This document shows, piece by piece, positions 5,182 through 29,225 of a stretch of DNA of 46,381 bases; within the stretch, counting starts at the first letter, position 1, and the number at the start of each line of letters is the position of its first letter. The translations under genes and the position numbers were made by a program. The stretch spans positions 1 through 46,381 of IMG/VR virus record IMGVR_UViG_3300023223_000459. One strand, given 5' to 3'. The stretch is from a virus. The notes under the pieces were generated by a model. That model did no database searches and had not been told where the DNA came from. It worked only from the letters and a program-made list of their open reading frames with translations.

Positions 5182-5374
5182 AAGACACCTAAGAACCCAA
5201 ATGAAGCACAATGCTGAACAGAGTCTGATAGCTTGGTTTCGTGAAAGAGCTATAGAACTCTATGAAGAAGATTCTGTGTATTGGGCCCAAGCGCCAAGGT
5301 TCATGGATCAGATGCTAGATGAGTGGAAACTAGATGTGGACTACGAGAACTGGGAGAAAGAAAATGACAAATGA
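5174..5374 (+). CDS. Hypothetical helical protein
   Basis: 66 residues, basic at the start (MSKRHLRTQMKH), then acidic and helical with many Trp (ends WEKENDK). It overlaps the gene before it by 8 bases and the next by 11. No family is recognised. Confidence 0.6.
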   Translation: MSKRHLRTQMKHNAEQSLIAWFRERAIELYEEDSVYWAQAPRFMDQMLDEWKLDVDYENWEKENDK

Positions 5375-5747
5375 CGAGCTGGAAGGCGCTTTATTGGAAT
5401 GTGTTCGGGAAGCTCTGGGAGACACTACCCAGACACTAAAAAAACAAACCGAGAAATTGAGAATACGAATGGAAGCGGACCCGGCTCTTATGGCGGATTT
5501 CTTAGCAATTGATAAAGAACTTGGAAAAGACCTGGAGAGCGCTATTGAAGCTAGGACAAAGGTGGCCGAAGATATGATTTTTGCTGGAATGCTGGGGGTA
5601 TTATGTGGAACTTATGAGGCTATGAAGCAAGATCAACCCCCGGGAGTCTCTACAGATTCAATTTTCAATAATTATTATAGATCTGCGAGCACTCTTGTTC
5701 TAGAAACGGGAATAGTTCCCCCAAAAACCGGAGAGACTGTTCACTAA
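5364..5747 (+). CDS. Hypothetical protein
   Basis: 127 residues. Two charged helical segments (residues about 5-40 and 50-75) are followed by a small-residue-rich helix. ATG 5364 has GGGAG upstream, whereas the reading from 5334 lies inside the preceding gene. Function is unknown. A 149-base gap without a gene follows. Confidence 0.6.
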   Translation: MTNDELEGALLECVREALGDTTQTLKKQTEKLRIRMEADPALMADFLAIDKELGKDLESAIEARTKVAEDMIFAGMLGVLCGTYEAMKQDQPPGVSTDSIFNNYYRSASTLVLETGIVPPKTGETVH

Positions 5748-19315: not shown

Positions 19316-19389
19316 TGCAGGAAATTCTCTTCGCTGGGGGACTTATCCTATTACTATACTGGCTTCTTTCTTTAGTCCCAAATGACTAA
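19315..19389 (+). CDS. Possible membrane leader peptide coupled to the polymerase
   Basis: 24 residues from GTG 19315 (overlapping the previous TAG), one hydrophobic helix (ILFAGGLILLLYWLLSLV). Its stop overlaps the polymerase start by 8 bases. The polymerase ATG has no ribosome site of its own, so translation through this peptide could deliver ribosomes. It is very short and unproven. Confidence 0.35.
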   Translation: MQEILFAGGLILLLYWLLSLVPND

Positions 19390-21802
19390 GGCTCCGCTGG
19401 CCCTATGCTCTGAGTGTCCTCTACAAGAGAGACCTTGTGTGCTAGGTAAGTCTAGTCATAAGGCACACCCTCGCATAGCCATTGTAGGGGATCATCCCTA
19501 TAAAGTAGACATAAATAAGAAGGTTCTGTTCCGTGGCTCTGATGGCTATTTCCTAAACGACCTCTTCAAAGAACTAGGCTGGTCCAGGGCAGACCTAATC
19601 CTTACCAAAGCAGTTCTGTGCCAACCGCCTCCCCACTTCAAAAAGAAACTATGGAAACCCGCCCTAGATGCCTGCAGACCAAGACTAGTAGCAGAGCTAG
19701 AGAGCCTGGCAGACAAGTCCCTGATTCTGGTGTTTGGGTCAGAAGCTCTTAGGACGCTTGCGCCAAGTAAGAAGTCTGCCAACGGCTGGCAAGGATATCC
19801 AGTAAACGACCAAGATCTCATAGAGCCCCTTCGAGGGAGGGACCTGATCGTATACCCCATGAGGTCTATTCGAGAGGTTCTGGCAGATCCTATTCACTAC
19901 CCGGCTTGGCGCATAAGGCTCTTCAGGGCTAGAGATTGGCTAAATGGCAAACCCCCCGCACACCGCTGGTCCAAGATTATCACGCAAGAAGGACCTGAGA
20001 TGGTCAAAGCCCTAGAGGAAATTCTCGGGAGTGGAGGGCCGATAGGAGTAGACGTAGAGACCATTGGTGACACAGTATTTGACTCTAGGATCAGGTGTCT
20101 AGGGGTGGCAAATACGAAACTGGCAGTCTCTGTCATGTGGCCCCCGGAGAACTCTGAATGTGAGCGGCTGATGCGTGCTTTATACGCTGGACCCCTAGAG
20201 AAGGCGCTGCAGAACAGGAATTTCGATAGACTGGCCTGTAAGGCCAATGGAATCACTCTGTCAGGGCCCTACTTTGATACGCTGACTGCCGATTTTGCGC
20301 TGAACACTCGAGGTAGGCATGCCCTGGGGGAGATAGCAAATAGAGAGTTTGGTTCCCCTAGATGGAAGACCGAGTTCCAGAATAATGACCAAGACCTCAA
20401 GGGCTCAGAACTCTGGGCTAAGGTGGACATAGAGAAACTGAAGACCTATAACGCCAAGGATAACTACCAAACTATCCTACTTCGGCACTCTTTCAAAGCC
20501 CAGCTAGAGGCAGATTCTGTCGCTTCGAGCACCTATGAGATGTCGATGGCACTCTCTGAAGTAGGCATAGCCATGACAGAGGTGGGTATCCAGGTAGACC
20601 TAGAGAAGAGAAAAGAACTCACAGACCTGGCCACCGAGACCCTAGAGAAAATAGAATCTGATTTGGGAGCCACATTGGATGATGTGGGATTTGACTGTGA
20701 GGACCCGAGACGCTTGGCTGCTAGTCCTGCCCAACTGAAGAAACTCTTCTACTCTCATTTTGGCCTGACACCTAGAGTGTTCTCTAAGGACACGGGCTTG
20801 GCCAGCACAGATCACGAGGCCCTCTTCCAGATCCAATCCACCGGAACCACAGAAGCCAAGAGAGTAGCTAAGATCATATCCGCACACCGAGGCTGGTCGA
20901 AACTGAAGAACACCTACCTAGTAGGCGCCCCCATTCATGCTGATGGCTGCTTTCATCCTCACTGGAAATTTGAGCATGTCATTACCTTTAGAGCCAGCTG
21001 TGAAGACCCTAATATGCAGAATTGGCCCAAGCCCCATAAGAAGGAAATCGATGGGAAGGTGAAAGTCTTACGGCCAGGGCTCAGAGGACTCATCAGGGCC
21101 AGAGACGGCATGTGGCTAGTGAGGGCAGACAAGAGCCAATTGGAACTGAGAATCATTGCCGCTGTTAGCGGAGATTCCACCCTTCTAGAATTCTATCGAA
21201 TTGGAAGAGATGTGCATGGCTATCTATCGGCAGAAATGAATGGGACACCCGAGGACCAGGTGCTCAAACATCAGCGAGACTTTGCCAAGGTCTTTAACTT
21301 TGGAGATAACTATGGGTCTAGTGCCCAGACTCTTCTGAAACAGGGCCTAGAGACCTTTCCAGGTCTAACCCTAGTGGCCGTAAAGCGAGTTCAGGAGGTG
21401 CGGCGCAGACTATTTCCTGGCATCTTTGAGTGGCAAGAGAAACAGAAGAAGCGAGTCAGAGACTGTGGATATGTAGAGATGCCTCTCTCTGGCCGCAAGC
21501 TGCACTTCTACCTGAACAAGTTCAAGCCCACAGAGATGTTCAACTATCCAATTCAGGGCACAGCCGCAGATCTGATGAATCCCGTCATGCTAAAGGTGGC
21601 AGAGAGACTGCGGTGGGATAAGGGCGAGAGTTTGCTGGCCCAGGTGCATGACGAGCTATTGCTAGAAGGACCAGATCCTGATAGACTGGTAGATATACTT
21701 AAAGAGGAAATGCCTCAGGCACTAGAGATTTGTGGGAATCATATGGAATTTCCAATTGAGGTAAGTGTGGGTAAGAACTGGGAAAAAATGGAGGAAGTAT
21801 GA
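19382..21802 (+). CDS. Uracil-DNA glycosylase-like/DNA polymerase A fusion
   Basis: 806 residues, three parts. Residues 1-190 resemble Fe-S uracil-DNA glycosylases: Cys 9, 12, 80 and 98 suit a 4Fe-4S cluster, but the family GE-x-PG motif reads GDHPY, so activity is uncertain. About 215-390 is a 3'-5' exonuclease with DVET, NRNFD and YNAKD. The polymerase A domain has PNMQNWP, motif A DKSQLELR, motif B AKVFNFGDNYG and motif C QVHDEL, all essential residues present. There is no 5' nuclease. It is the replicative polymerase, perhaps with a built-in uracil sensor. Its start lacks a ribosome site. Confidence 0.9.
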   Translation: MTKAPLALCSECPLQERPCVLGKSSHKAHPRIAIVGDHPYKVDINKKVLFRGSDGYFLNDLFKELGWSRADLILTKAVLCQPPPHFKKKLWKPALDACRPRLVAELESLADKSLILVFGSEALRTLAPSKKSANGWQGYPVNDQDLIEPLRGRDLIVYPMRSIREVLADPIHYPAWRIRLFRARDWLNGKPPAHRWSKIITQEGPEMVKALEEILGSGGPIGVDVETIGDTVFDSRIRCLGVANTKLAVSVMWPPENSECERLMRALYAGPLEKALQNRNFDRLACKANGITLSGPYFDTLTADFALNTRGRHALGEIANREFGSPRWKTEFQNNDQDLKGSELWAKVDIEKLKTYNAKDNYQTILLRHSFKAQLEADSVASSTYEMSMALSEVGIAMTEVGIQVDLEKRKELTDLATETLEKIESDLGATLDDVGFDCEDPRRLAASPAQLKKLFYSHFGLTPRVFSKDTGLASTDHEALFQIQSTGTTEAKRVAKIISAHRGWSKLKNTYLVGAPIHADGCFHPHWKFEHVITFRASCEDPNMQNWPKPHKKEIDGKVKVLRPGLRGLIRARDGMWLVRADKSQLELRIIAAVSGDSTLLEFYRIGRDVHGYLSAEMNGTPEDQVLKHQRDFAKVFNFGDNYGSSAQTLLKQGLETFPGLTLVAVKRVQEVRRRLFPGIFEWQEKQKKRVRDCGYVEMPLSGRKLHFYLNKFKPTEMFNYPIQGTAADLMNPVMLKVAERLRWDKGESLLAQVHDELLLEGPDPDRLVDILKEEMPQALEICGNHMEFPIEVSVGKNWEKMEEV

Positions 21803-21981
21803 CAAACGAAGAAGTAAGAGACAAAGTAGAATGGGAGGGTCTAGGTTATGCGGTAACTAATTACATGTCTGAGAAAGACATAAAAGATCCAGAGCTAAAA
21901 GTGTTATGGAAAGCGGCCCGTGTTGCCATGAAAGAATTAGAGAGTTTCTTAAACGCTATTCCTGGAGGAGAGGAAGTATGA
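21799..21981 (+). CDS. Hypothetical small acidic protein
   Basis: 60 residues, helical and acidic (DKVEWEGLGYAVTNYM ... AMKELESFLNAIP). ATGA overlap with the polymerase stop; GGAGGA upstream. Function is unknown. Confidence 0.6.
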   Translation: MTNEEVRDKVEWEGLGYAVTNYMSEKDIKDPELKVLWKAARVAMKELESFLNAIPGGEEV

Positions 21982-22220
21982 TCTCATTACTATTAGCCCC
22001 CCTAGTTGTAATTGGGCTCTCTTGTGGCGTTTACTCCCCTAGAGGTGGGATGAAATTTCAAGAAGTGAGTTGTGTGTCTAGCCTTAGAATAGATGGACAT
22101 CGATACGTCTGTGATGCCTTGGATAATCCTTGTTCGGTAGTTTCAAAAACACGAGCCCTAATTTGTGATGATGCAACCATTACACTGAAACACTTGGTCT
22201 GTGCAGGAGAGAAGAAATGA
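21978..22220 (+). CDS. Small exported or membrane-anchored Cys protein
   Basis: 80 residues. Residues 1-16 are hydrophobic (MISLLLAPLVVIGLSC), resembling an uncharged signal segment; LSC is not a good lipobox. Six Cys in the mature part suggest disulphides and a periplasmic location. AGGAGAGGAAGT precedes ATG 21978. No family is recognised. Confidence 0.55.
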   Translation: MISLLLAPLVVIGLSCGVYSPRGGMKFQEVSCVSSLRIDGHRYVCDALDNPCSVVSKTRALICDDATITLKHLVCAGEKK

Positions 22221-23589: not shown

Positions 23590-23933
23590 TGGCGTTTGAT
23601 TATGTAAATTTTTCTACTCTCTGCTTTTCTTGCAAGGAACCCATGGGAAATAGGGAGGATGCCTCTGACAAACACGGTAAAAAATCCTGGTTTCAAACAA
23701 AGGGCGGGCCTAACCACTATTCATACATGAACTGGCAAGATCTAAGTAATGGTTCTAGAATTTATTCCTCATGTCCTAAGTGTGCTAAGTGGCACGAGTT
23801 TGAGGTGATCAGAACACCCTACGCAGAGCAAGAACTTCAGAAGGTTGAGGACATACGGCAAAAGGTGATGACTGTCTTAGAACTGACTGATGCCATAGAT
23901 GTGAGATATATTGAAGAGGAAGATGAGAACTAG
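23589..23933 (+). CDS. Hypothetical zinc-binding protein, last gene of the plus arm
   Basis: 114 residues from GTG 23589 (overlapping the preceding TAG). CFSCKEPMGN and CPKCAKWHEF give two CxxC knuckles 43 residues apart; the C-terminal half is helical and acidic. Its TAG overlaps the TAG of the minus-strand gene in a shared CTAG. Function is unknown. Confidence 0.6.
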   Translation: MAFDYVNFSTLCFSCKEPMGNREDASDKHGKKSWFQTKGGPNHYSYMNWQDLSNGSRIYSSCPKCAKWHEFEVIRTPYAEQELQKVEDIRQKVMTVLELTDAIDVRYIEEEDEN

Positions 23934-24679
23934 ACTGAGTAGAGTTTTCCCTTCACCCAGCAAGAATACTTGCCCTTATCCACCACTATCAACTTCAGGT
24001 CTATATAGATGTTCTGGGTTCTAGTATCTAGACCCACTAGTGAGAAGGCCAAGGTCCAATCTCTATAAGCTTTCACCCTATGAGTGTAGTCGATCTGATT
24101 GGCATCTCCTAGCCATCCATTACAGACAGACACGTGGGTTTCTCCTACCGCATTTCCCTCGGCTATAAGCTGTGCTCTGTGGGCATGTCCCACCATTACA
24201 TTATGCTGGTAGTCCTGAAGCGTAGCGGTGGCCACGTGTTTGCCAGATCTGCCAGTGGTGTGCGTGATATTGAGCTTGCCGATCTTAGTGGCCCTTAGGT
24301 AGGGCACCACTTCCCAGCCAGCTTCTGAAAATCCTGTCTCATCATCAAAGGATCTTCTACTCGTCAGCTCAGGCGTGTTCTTCTTTATATATTCTTCGTA
24401 GCGGTCTTCGTGATTACCTAGCGTAATGATCTTACGTTTGGCGCCTAGCTTATCTAGTTGTTTCCTGGCCGTTTCCACGGCCACAAGTTCCTGGTCATAG
24501 GTTAGTCTGTGGGGATCCTTCGTATAACGACTTATCATGTAATTGTCAGCAAAGTCTCCTAGAGATACTAATCCATAGGGTTTGAGATCCTTTGCAACTT
24601 TGAGAACTAGCTTCCAGGCTTTCTTATTTACGTAGGGATGGTGGCAATCGGGTATGATGAGCCAGGTCTGTAGGGCCAC
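23930..24679 (-). CDS. Metallophosphoesterase (3 of 3)
   Basis: 249 residues. DCHHPY (D11, H13), SLGDFADN, LGNHEDRYEEY, THTTG and GHAHRAQ make a full calcineurin-like site, of the phage type that often lies near late genes. The GTG start at 24679 follows directly on the TAA of the holin extension with GGAG seven bases upstream. It is the last gene of the late arm, so it is expressed with lysis genes, unlike the two early relatives. Substrate is unknown. Confidence 0.8.
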   Translation of the reverse strand: MALQTWLIIPDCHHPYVNKKAWKLVLKVAKDLKPYGLVSLGDFADNYMISRYTKDPHRLTYDQELVAVETARKQLDKLGAKRKIITLGNHEDRYEEYIKKNTPELTSRRSFDDETGFSEAGWEVVPYLRATKIGKLNITHTTGRSGKHVATATLQDYQHNVMVGHAHRAQLIAEGNAVGETHVSVCNGWLGDANQIDYTHRVKAYRDWTLAFSLVGLDTRTQNIYIDLKLIVVDKGKYSCWVKGKLYSV

Positions 24680-25092
24680 TTAGAATCTCCAGGTGAACCC
24701 CAAGCCTACCTTCGGCTTTAGAGTCTTCAGTGAAGTGCCGGCGTCTATGGCCAGATTCATACCCTGTGCTATTGGGATATAGAGCTGAGCGCCTAGAGTC
24801 TTACCATCAGTAGTCAGGGCTATGCCTCTTTTGGGGGCACTCCCGCTAGTTACTTTTTTTCGGAGGTTGCCTCCGCTGCTGCAGTCAAAGCACTGGCCTT
24901 GGCCGCAGTAGATTTCCCTAGTGTGCGTGATGCCGTGTAACCCATAGCTGTCAAAGCAGATGCCACAAAGGCCACAATCGTGCCCTCGACAGACTCTAGG
25001 CCAATAGCCCCAGATGCCAGCGCTGCTCCTACTAGGATTGCTACTAGACTTAGCCAAAATTCTGTGGTTTTATACCCTGGTTTTGATTCCAT
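24680..25092 (-). CDS. Holin-like protein with predicted -1 frameshift extension
   Basis: Proposed product of 137 residues: the 80-residue holin-like protein plus 57 residues read in the -1 frame (VTSGSAPKRGIALTTDG ... VGLGFTWRF). The extension has no plausible start codon before an internal Met. The zero frame ends A AAA AAG TAA (heptamer 24859-24853), with GGAGG (24874-24870) exactly 10 bases upstream, as in E. coli dnaX. The extension is beta-like and ends in Phe after alternating hydrophobics, as outer-membrane barrels do. Frameshifting itself is inference. Confidence 0.55.
24850..25092 (-). CDS. Holin-like membrane protein (unshifted product)
   Basis: 80 residues. MESKPGYKTTEFWLSL, then hydrophobic segments at about 12-31 and 37-53 and an Ala/Lys-rich tail ending EKK. 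KPGYKTTEFW is the opening of many small phage membrane proteins annotated as holins. It lies directly after the amidase (28-base gap) with CTAGGAGAG upstream. It would sit in the inner membrane and release the amidase. Its last codons form a slippery site (see the fused product). Confidence 0.65.
   Translation of the reverse strand: MESKPGYKTTEFWLSLVAILVGAALASGAIGLESVEGTIVAFVASALTAMGYTASRTLGKSTAAKASALTAAAEATSEKK
24853..24875 (-). promoter_or_regulatory. Candidate -1 frameshift signal (dnaX-like)
   Basis: Reading the minus strand: CGGAGG-CAA-CCTCCG (24875-24861, a perfect 6-bp hairpin that contains GGAGG), then seven A and G, giving the heptamer A AAA AAG in phase with the holin frame, then TAA. 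In dnaX the elements are AGGGAG, 10 bases, A AAA AAG. Only a weak downstream stem is visible (GTGCC/GGCAT, about 24815-24835). Confidence 0.6.
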
Positions 25093-25120
25093 TTGTCTCT
25101 CCTAGTCCGCTAAGCGGTTC

Positions 25121-25564
25121 TTATTGGGGCCCTCGCAATAGGGCTCTAAAATCCTCTATTCTGAACATTGGGCAGGTCTTAGTTTCATCAAACTGATAGT
25201 GGCCAAAGACTTGCTCTATTGGAATAGTATACTTGGTTCTGAGTCTATTTACAAGGAAAAGTGCTTTACGTAACTGTGCAACAGTAAAGAGGTAATCAGT
25301 GCCAATAAGGCATATCCCCAACGAATCCCTATTGTGGCCCCTGGCATGGGCTCCGATAACGCCTTCGTCTCGTCCCTTTTCCACCACCCCGTCTTGAAGG
25401 TAGGAGTATTCTTGTCCTGATTTGGGCCTTCCATTTGTGATGACATAGTGATATCCTATACCATTCCAGCCTTTCTGTCTATGCCAGGAATCTATCTCAG
25501 CCGCATTACCCCAGCTAGAGTCTGAGCAGTGCAGTATGATCTTAGTAAGGGCTCTTCCATTCAT
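25121..25564 (-). CDS. N-acetylmuramoyl-L-alanine amidase (endolysin, Amidase_2)
   Basis: 147 residues from ATG 25564, close to the 151 of T7 lysozyme. Zinc ligands are His12 (ILHCSDS), His122 (GHYQF) and Cys131 (KTCP); Tyr40 and Lys129 sit where the T7 catalytic Tyr46 and Lys128 are. It cuts the amide bond between muramic acid and the peptide stem of peptidoglycan. It has no signal peptide, so it needs the holin. AGGAG lies 11 bases upstream; ATG 25684 would extend it into the metallopeptidase gene. Confidence 0.85.
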   Translation of the reverse strand: MNGRALTKIILHCSDSSWGNAAEIDSWHRQKGWNGIGYHYVITNGRPKSGQEYSYLQDGVVEKGRDEGVIGAHARGHNRDSLGICLIGTDYLFTVAQLRKALFLVNRLRTKYTIPIEQVFGHYQFDETKTCPMFRIEDFRALLRGPQ

Positions 25565-26183
25565 TGGGTCTGACACTCCTGGTGATGGGCGAGACTTGGT
25601 TAAAGAGGCCATGAAAGCGTGTATTCTTGAGAAGATATCTGTCCAGTCCAATTTGCTCAGCAGCCGCTTCCAATTCAGTCCCATGTAGATAAATTCCCTT
25701 TTTCTTCTTTTCTATCTCTTCGTGTTCTCTGTAGCCTGCCCGATGGATGATGTAGTGGCCAATCTCGTGTGCTAGAGTTGATCCCCAGGTCCACTCATTC
25801 TTTCTCAATGTCACAAATATTACTCCGCCTTCTGGGGCATAACCCACAATCCACCAACCTAGGGGTTCTTCGTCCCGTGGAAAGATATCGATATACTTTG
25901 ACAAAAAGATGAGAGTCATGCCCTGAGTGGTACCTTCTGGCGCACCAAATCTGGTCTCTACCCCAGCAGCTCTTTCATCCACATAGTATGGAGGTGGGCA
26001 ATCCGCTTCATACTGATAGACATAGATGCCTCTAGCTGTGGTGTAACAGTATTTGGCGTTTTGGGCTGCGGTAGTTACGACTACTTCATCTGAGAAGTGT
26101 GGTCTGTGATAGTATTTGTCAATCAGTGGTGAGCAAGTAGCAACTACCAGCAGGGTTAAGAGACCCACTAGTAATTTTTTCAT
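25542..26183 (-). CDS. Exported zinc metallopeptidase (HEIGH), possible lipoprotein
   Basis: 213 residues. The N-terminal MKKLLVGLLTLLVVATC is a signal sequence; Cys17 could be lipidated, although Thr at -1 is unusual in a lipobox. HEIGH at 139-143, preceded by a beta strand (GVIFVTLRKNEW) and followed by YREHEE, gives a typical zincin site. It is placed between adhesin-type genes and the amidase, so it may help lysis or digest an envelope protein. AAGGAG precedes ATG 26183. No family name is assigned. Confidence 0.65.
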   Translation of the reverse strand: MKKLLVGLLTLLVVATCSPLIDKYYHRPHFSDEVVVTTAAQNAKYCYTTARGIYVYQYEADCPPPYYVDERAAGVETRFGAPEGTTQGMTLIFLSKYIDIFPRDEEPLGWWIVGYAPEGGVIFVTLRKNEWTWGSTLAHEIGHYIIHRAGYREHEEIEKKKKGIYLHGTELEAAAEQIGLDRYLLKNTRFHGLFNQVSPITRSVRPNEWKSPY

Positions 26184-27802: not shown

Positions 27803-28111
27803 CTAATCTCCTAGAAAATGTAGTGCTAACTGGATGACGAGAGGAATTGTGCAGGCTGCTCCTAAGATCCAAGATTGTTTGTTTTCCACAGCCCGAACTC
27901 GCTCCTCAAGTAACTTGTCGGCATCTGTAATCTCTTTGAGGCCTTCTGCCTGATGAGACTGGTTGTTCTTAAGAACCCCCACATCTAACATGAGAGCGTC
28001 CATCTTGGTATCCAAGGTCTGCACTGCGTCATAAATTCTATCTGCGTGATTCTCGCCCAAAACTTCCTCCTCACTAAGCAGTCTCAGCCTATTAGATGCC
28101 ATATTTTCCAT
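27803..28111 (-). CDS. XhlA-like membrane protein
   Basis: 102 residues. A charged helical part (VQTLDTKMDALMLDVGVLK, EERVRAVENKQ) is followed by one C-terminal hydrophobic segment (SWILGAACTIPLVIQLALHFL), the layout of XhlA haemolysin-type holin partners. It could be a second lysis membrane protein. Starts at 28111 or 28102; the longer reading into the neighbour is rejected. Confidence 0.6.
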   Translation of the reverse strand: MENMASNRLRLLSEEEVLGENHADRIYDAVQTLDTKMDALMLDVGVLKNNQSHQAEGLKEITDADKLLEERVRAVENKQSWILGAACTIPLVIQLALHFLGD

Positions 28112-28121
28112 CTTAGTTCTC

Positions 28122-29225
28122 CTAAATAATGACAATCTCAGCGAAACTAGGACTAAGTGTCCCAGCTGCATAGGTCAAATTTCTAGCCCCTGGATTGAGT
28201 GAAAAGCGAAAATCTTGCCCCCCAGCCACAGCGATTGGCCCAAACCAGATATCCCAAAAGAAATGATTGAATCCCTGATTCATGACAATACGCTCGGCTA
28301 TAGTCACCCCGCTAGCAGCTCTAAGAAACCATTGTGGGGCAGTTCCCAAAGGGCGCCTTAAACCTCCGGAAAACCAGGTGCCGGGTGCGGTTGCGGCTCC
28401 GGCTATAATAGTTCCTGTAGTAGGAGCCGATACAGATGTAAAAGCGTGTCTAGCTTGCAGTTCTACTGTCTCATTCTTGAAAAGTTTAACCGTGCATGAC
28501 ACATTGACCACCATAATATTAGTGCTTGGCGGTAAAATACCGCTTTCATGATAATCCTTTCCTCCACTTACTACAAATTTGAAGCTTCCGCCGGTATCTC
28601 TCACTAAAAATTGGGTATCAACATCCTGTGTTGTTCCAAAAATATCCGCATCACCAATCCCAGTGGGTTCCATAACGAGACGACCTTCAAAACTATAGAT
28701 CCCATTTACTGGGGCCGTATATTTACCGGTAACTGTGTTATAATCAGATACTTGATCAAATGCACCAGTGCTAGTATCATTGTCACACGGAACCACCACA
28801 ATAGTAGCATGGGGAACTAGGGTTATATCATTGAGAAGAATGGCCCTAAAGCTACTATCTTCTGTCAGATCATCTGAAGAAGCTCCAGTTGTCATATCCA
28901 AATAGATATGGGCAATCATCTGGCCACTAGTTATTCCTGCAGGGATTGTCAGATCATCTGCGACCGTGTCCCACATACTGAGAGGGTCGGCGCTCACACT
29001 ATCAAACTGCAACTGAGTCTCTGTGTTTGCCGGAAGAAGTTTGGCTGCAGCATTGAATAACCTAGCATTGGCCTGTGCTCCCTGAACAAGACCTATATCA
29101 TCCAATGTCTCAGCTAGGGCTTCTGCTGCTCTCTTAGCTCTAAAGTCATTCTCAAGACCATGCCGCCAGCCCTGAGCCTTCTTGGTCAGTAGATTCTTTA
29201 TGAATTGTGTCTTATTGATTGGCAC
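28122..29225 (-). CDS. C1q-like head or tail fibre protein
   Basis: 367 residues. The N-terminal 70 residues are helical (virion anchor). Around 165-300, DYNTVTGKYTAPVNGIYSFE followed by long beta strands (NIMVVNVSCTVKLFKNETVELQARH) matches C1q/TNF-like jelly rolls (tGxFtaPvxGxYxF). These trimerise in phage fibres. The C-terminus is beta-rich. It overlaps the preceding large gene by one base. Confidence 0.65.
   Translation of the reverse strand: MPINKTQFIKNLLTKKAQGWRHGLENDFRAKRAAEALAETLDDIGLVQGAQANARLFNAAAKLLPANTETQLQFDSVSADPLSMWDTVADDLTIPAGITSGQMIAHIYLDMTTGASSDDLTEDSSFRAILLNDITLVPHATIVVVPCDNDTSTGAFDQVSDYNTVTGKYTAPVNGIYSFEGRLVMEPTGIGDADIFGTTQDVDTQFLVRDTGGSFKFVVSGGKDYHESGILPPSTNIMVVNVSCTVKLFKNETVELQARHAFTSVSAPTTGTIIAGAATAPGTWFSGGLRRPLGTAPQWFLRAASGVTIAERIVMNQGFNHFFWDIWFGPIAVAGGQDFRFSLNPGARNLTYAAGTLSPSFAEIVII

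Follow-up and report, generated by a model that had tools for sequence, protein, structure and literature searches.

The window, by which we mean the whole stretch of viral DNA that was analysed (46,381 nucleotides), carries on its minus strand a small holin-like gene between an amidase endolysin gene and a metallophosphoesterase gene. The holin-like frame ends GAA AAA AAG TAA and so contains an in-frame A AAA AAG heptamer, a point on which the sequence agrees with the preliminary description. The features found at this site are as follows, in the direction of the minus strand:

25121-25684, minus strand: endolysin, Amidase_2 (N-acetylmuramoyl-L-alanine amidase; Pfam 1.6e-13, PHROG amidase 4.4e-33), directly upstream of the holin-like gene
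25099-25103, minus strand: AGGAG, ribosome-binding site of the holin-like gene, read from the sequence
25092-24850, minus strand: holin-like 0 frame, 80 aa, with ATG start, TAA stop and hydrophobic segments at residues about 14-32 and 35-52
24861-24875, minus strand: inverted repeat CGGAGG-CAA-CCTCCG, which could fold, competing with the Shine-Dalgarno-like element
24874-24870, minus strand: GGAGG, Shine-Dalgarno-like, exactly 10 nt 5' of the heptamer
24859-24853, minus strand: slippery heptamer A AAA AAG, in frame, abutting the 0-frame stop on its 5' side
24850-24852, minus strand: 0-frame stop TAA, read from the sequence
24680-24853, minus strand: -1 frame extension, 57 codons plus TAA, identified by codon score, with a predicted four-stranded beta domain
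24683-24709, minus strand: C-terminal VGLGFTWRF, a G-x-x-Phi-x-aromatic ending which resembles an outer-membrane beta signal and is common to all extensions
23930-24679, minus strand: metallophosphoesterase gene, whose GTG (24679) abuts the extension stop TAA (24682-24680)

The -1 frame had been described as 57 codons long, with no start codon before an internal Met and with its end at the GTG of the next gene, and we found this to be correct; read together with the 0 frame it gives a fusion of 80 + 57 = 137 amino acids. The codon score of the extension is 0.166 per codon, compared to a mean of 0.179 (sd 0.069) for the genes of this phage, and 0/600 off-frame windows reached it. This gene-like codon usage means that the -1 frame is very probably translated. 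Stop-codon read-through is excluded because the extension sits in the -1 frame, and a fusion of the tail-chaperone type was rejected as there is no tail context.

As had also been noted, the GGAGG lies exactly 10 nt before the heptamer, the spacing range used for stimulatory Shine-Dalgarno elements being 6-17 nt (PMC4066793), and the exact pattern GGAGG-N10-AAAAAAG occurs only once in the window. The GGAGG can pair with the CCUCC which follows it to form a 6-bp hairpin (-8.1 kcal/mol), and no significant RNA structure was found downstream of the window heptamer (z +0.9). Slippage in the window would rely, if anything, on the GGAGG, itself maskable by the hairpin. The suggestion that A AAA AAG is the most efficient slippery site stands in part: it is among the three most efficient motifs in E. 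coli, together with CCCAAAG and GGGAAAG (up to 54%), but the highest measured figure, 54%, belongs to C CCA AAG with a pseudoknot (PMC4066793).

Searches of viral contigs with the holin-like half gave hundreds of relatives, the first query alone matching at 292 places. Most of these are 60-75 residues long and stop without a heptamer, with a minority being longer. Four loci which were found by a search blind to the extension (L053, L059, L074 and L076) all carry a -1 extension directly after the stop, ending GVRYRW, GVNFKWDW, GVRIKW and GVKVKWKW respectively. A fifth extended relative, L083, came from the next search, and the neighbouring upstream gene as query gave five more extended genomes: L221, L223, L224, L225 (= L226) and L227. 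Loci on the same contig are paired as L053/L159, L059/L084, L074/L085 and L076/L082. Thus ten related phage genomes, making at least eleven uncultivated phages with that of the window, share the layout of holin-like frame, heptamer and -1 extension; the relatives' heptamers lie 0-12 nt before the 0-frame stop and their extensions run for 55-76 codons, ending G-x-x-Phi-x-aromatic. When the window terminase was used as query no close relatives were found, and a search with the window extension alone gave none either, whether among viral contigs or among named phages. Among genome contigs there were eight holin relatives, none of which was extended (0/8). In named phages neither the holin half nor the fusions had a convincing match, which is weak evidence of absence because the BLAST low-complexity filter may hide such hydrophobic proteins; the three weak matches inspected (H28, H29 and H42) were off-gene or unrelated.

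The heptamer itself differs between genomes, being AAAAAAG in the window and L085, AAAAAAA in L221, L223, L224 and L225, CCCAAAG in L082, L083, L084 and L227, and AAACCCT in L159. A heptamer was present within the last eight codons of 11/11 extended genes versus 2/120 distinct unextended relatives from viral contigs (Fisher P = 2e-14, a value which is overstated as related sequences are not independent). Both the heptamer and the surrounding amino acids have changed across lineages with slipperiness being kept, which points to selection for slippage. In L082, L083, L085 and L159 the heptamer is preceded, either directly or after one intervening base, by a TGA in the -1 frame, which therefore opens there.

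Alternatively, the extension could be an independent small gene on which ribosomes reinitiate at an internal start once they have terminated at the holin stop. Some relatives do have an ATG or TTG inside the extension, and stop-start coupling is common in phages. However, the L084 extension contains no ATG, GTG or TTG at all, the sole start candidates in L082 and L083 are TTG codons inside the domain, and the only ATG of the window extension is the 32nd codon after the 0-frame stop, where starting would drop 31/57 residues. This reading also fails to explain the heptamers in 11/11 genes and we rejected it as highly improbable. Among the relatives which keep the extension, none was found to have lost the heptamer or to encode the extension independently, behind a start codon of its own.

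The seven consecutive A in the window, and the long A runs in some relatives, are prone to indels and to polymerase slippage, and could indicate an indel error, a decayed gene or transcriptional rather than ribosomal slippage. We consider this very unlikely. CCCAAAG and AAACCCT are not homopolymers, and their presence in several genomes excludes a sequencing indel as a general explanation; moreover the eleven genomes agree, the two separate contigs L225 and L226 have an identical slippery site, and purifying selection acts on the extension. The L082 and L083 extensions differ by 12 synonymous and 3 non-synonymous changes (dN/dS 0.066), a pattern which reverses when they are read in the other two frames. 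More distant extension pairs gave dN/dS values of 0.09-0.16 where dS was unsaturated, and the -1-frame values among four relatives were 0.066-0.158 where computable.

Of the elements which had been proposed to act together, the heptamer class and the -1 frame are kept in the relatives, and the GGAGG at its spacing is confined to the window; the relatives show other heptamers or a downstream hairpin. A hairpin starting 6 nt after the heptamer is kept in L082, L083 and L227 (z -3.4 to -4.6), L084 has a weaker downstream hairpin, and in several other extended relatives a stimulatory element is weak or absent. Comparison of the sequences establishes the heptamer, the coding nature of the -1 frame, the conservation of both and the shared C-terminal motif. 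The two forms of 80 and 137 residues which the preliminary description had put forward are strongly supported by this comparison (ten relatives, 11/11 heptamers), and we have high confidence that a programmed -1 frameshift would give a two-form holin-like protein.

Two further observations were made at the relatives' loci. In L223 (5479-5643), L224 (5498-5656) and L221 (5470-5619) a further small single-transmembrane ORF begins in the 0 frame immediately after the holin stop, overlapping the -1 extension. It ends QPPPR[DE] in L223 and L224, whose copies are 68% identical, is absent from L225, and stayed open in only 2-13% of trials in which the extension was recoded synonymously, and this stretch of L221, L223 and L224 may code three products. 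L228, which came from the same search with the upstream gene as query, has the same neighbourhood, with a holin-like gene (5203-5460) which has neither an extension nor a heptamer near its stop; this is either a natural loss or the ancestral state.

We also examined the predicted fold of the extension, which had been guessed to end in an outer-membrane beta signal. The single-chain AlphaFold model of the L083 extension has four strands (pLDDT 87), and a Foldseek search of the PDB with this model placed the trimeric-autotransporter anchors of Hia (three entries), AtaA and YadA in the top ten, with TM-scores of 0.74-0.80 over 52-58 aligned residues and a best E-value of 2.5e-3; it should be noted that the E-values for the anchor matches are only about 1e-3. 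Against the BFVD viral library the top matches of the same model were phage proteins with YadA-type anchors. In a single one-to-one comparison, a profile of the extension aligned with the phiEco32 anchor with the C termini in register (E 0.002). The two main extension sequence groups proved to be related (hhalign E 6e-5), and each predicted strand is hydrophobic on one face and polar on the other. The anchor family was absent from the Pfam matches of all 11 extensions, and a PDB sequence search with the extension profile found nothing. For the window extension the AlphaFold model also has four strands (pLDDT 75) with the same alternation of faces. This model did not retrieve anchors in Foldseek, and hhalign comparisons with the other extension groups were non-significant (E 0.26 and 0.046), such that no homology is claimed; the basis for assigning this fold in the window is therefore the layout, the length, the pattern of strands and the C-terminal motif. 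Together, the shared C-terminal motif and the structural matches of the relatives support the beta-signal guess, and the extension is likely to be an outer-membrane-type anchor domain, as predicted from these models.

The 0-frame product has two hydrophobic segments, is shorter than about 100 aa and adjoins the endolysin. Its best match to a holin family is weak (PHROG, E 0.13), as are the matches of its relatives to several PHROG holin families (best E 0.0008 and 0.0011), and we treat it as a putative holin on the basis of its position, its size and these weak family matches. The window phage has an SU10-like portal and adaptor and is therefore podovirus-like; as such phages eject channel proteins and the holin family matches are weak, the gene could instead serve DNA entry or another envelope step, with the fusion as a membrane protein for that purpose. 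This is improbable given that the window gene directly follows an amidase endolysin, that an M15 peptidase endolysin lies close downstream in L082, L083, L084, L085 and L227, and that the named PHROG matches of the unextended relatives are nearly all holins. A phosphoesterase is also found shortly downstream in L082, L083 and L227.

Other small proteins were seen near these genes. The product of 25542-26183 (minus strand) in the window has a lipoprotein-like N terminus (VVATC) and a weak match to an M78/IrrE-type metallopeptidase, overlaps the amidase start and is possibly another envelope-acting lysis factor. The product of 27803-28171 (minus strand) has a coiled coil and a C-terminal hydrophobic segment, is weakly XhlA-like (E 0.049) and may be a second lysis protein of the membrane. 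Just upstream of the frameshift gene in L083 (4772-5008), L084 (4771-5004) and L085 (155-391), and at similar places in L082 and L221-L228, lies a conserved small protein (MEDSATTAALVGVV...) with an N-terminal hydrophobic segment and a coiled-coil-like tail, which is probably no i-spanin because its charge pattern suggests a cytoplasmic tail. Outside the lysis region, 21906-22220 (plus strand) of the window may encode a small lipoprotein (internal ATG, MISLLLAPLVVIGLSCG...). Positions 19382-21802 (plus strand) of the window encode an 806-residue protein which joins a uracil-DNA glycosylase domain, a 3'-5' exonuclease and a family A DNA polymerase.

No match to the Rz-type i-spanin (PF03245) was found at E 1 in the window or in 12 related records, some of which are fragments. 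A lipobox scan of the window returned only the 213-aa peptidase-like protein and one protein of the replication half, besides two implausible short frames. The fusion has no signal peptide and no lipobox; it has an N-terminal hydrophobic pair and a beta C terminus, with no C-terminal transmembrane helix. The holin half has positive charges at both ends and none or few between its segments, and by the positive-inside pattern an N-in/C-in topology is therefore predicted, with both termini of the holin cytoplasmic. The anchor would therefore stay in the cytoplasm until the membrane is breached by the holin. This predicted topology argues against simple spanning of the envelope by the long form. 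The long form may insert in another way, or else its anchor may gain access to the outer membrane only once triggering has occurred, in which case the two lysis steps would be coupled by that alone.

A cytoplasmic tail is also what would be expected under the chief rival explanation, in which the frameshift is real and the long form regulates the holin. It would be an antiholin or a timing subunit, with its beta tail slowing or nucleating holin assembly. Frameshifting makes the long form in a fixed, low proportion to the short one, and paired holin-like proteins which tune lysis timing are known (PMC13056207). However, regulation leaves unexplained the strands with alternating faces of outer-membrane type, the free G-x-x-Phi-x-aromatic C terminus kept in 11/11 and the match to autotransporter anchors, and we consider it rather unlikely.

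The reading which we prefer is of a holin together with a minority holin-anchor fusion that acts like a one-piece spanin. Two lysis proteins would be made from one start. Most ribosomes would halt at the TAA to give the 80-residue two-segment holin-like protein, and a fraction would shift into the -1 frame on A AAA AAG, aided in the window by the GGAGG 10 nt upstream, and read 57 more codons to give the 137-residue fusion. The part added would be an amphipathic beta domain of four strands, of the same type as the anchors of trimeric autotransporters (Hia/YadA) and closing with a beta signal. After the endolysin and holin have acted, the holin half would keep the fusion in the inner membrane, and the fusion would insert its anchor, probably as a trimer, into the outer membrane and help to break or fuse the membranes, which is a spanin's job carried out without a lipoprotein. 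Export of the fusion, its trimeric state and its action at the outer membrane are steps that we infer. We judge this reading as a whole to be evenly balanced, and spanin-like action of the long form in particular to fall slightly short of that. More tentatively, the phage proteins made from these genes may form a new class which acts in lysis at the outer membrane, with a trimeric beta-barrel anchor joined to a holin by frameshifting. One gene would then set both the inner-membrane hole and, in a fixed ratio, a linker between the two membranes which takes the place of lipoprotein spanins.

Among the Gram-negative phage genomes surveyed, about 13% lack a recognisable spanin, in some not even a candidate lipoprotein is present, and how spanin-less phages disrupt the outer membrane is an open question (PMC6139136). 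If true, the fusion class could account for some of the phages without a detectable spanin. It is a conserved candidate for an undescribed phage route onto the outer membrane, and one which gene callers overlook, since the part for the outer membrane lacks a separate start codon. With it, lysis genes would join the known uses of productive -1 frameshifting, and a fixed-ratio device would be seen to link lysis at the inner membrane with lysis at the outer one. As a decoding device it belongs to a known kind, and its use in a lysis gene was not found in the literature searched, in which no paper joined 'holin', 'programmed frameshift' and 'slippery'. The available part of a large frameshifting review does not mention holins, and papers which pair 'holin gene' with 'ribosomal frameshift' are, by their titles, genome surveys.

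Like the unimolecular spanin gp11 of phage T1, the fusion is a small lysis-region protein of similar length with a beta-rich part, and it would have to link the inner and outer membranes; unlike gp11, it has no N-terminal lipoprotein signal, is made by frameshifting and has the reverse order, with inner-membrane segments N-terminal and the outer-membrane-type part C-terminal (PMC6139136). Lacking the lipoprotein signal, it falls outside the definition of a spanin, although its action may be similar. The extension is predicted to share with the trimeric autotransporter anchors (Hia, YadA and AtaA, and the phiEco32 adhesin) four strands per chain and an aromatic C-terminal beta signal, but it follows a two-segment inner-membrane protein rather than a Sec signal peptide and stalk. 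The phiEco32 anchor gene differs further in being free-standing and far from the holin, with a signal-like N terminus and collagen-like repeats. The extension is not a Pfam YadA anchor, there being no profile match, though it may work like one. In the lambda S105/S107 holin one gene likewise gives two membrane products, in that case from two starts and differing by two residues, whereas here the C termini differ by 55-76 residues through frameshifting. As in the -1 frameshift cassettes of E. coli dnaX, IS3/IS911 and phage lambda G-GT, an X_XXY_YYZ heptamer lies in the overlap, with an upstream Shine-Dalgarno-like element or a downstream hairpin, and slippage sets the product ratio; unlike in those cassettes, the heptamer stands here at the very end of a holin-like gene, where it appends a membrane-anchor-like domain.
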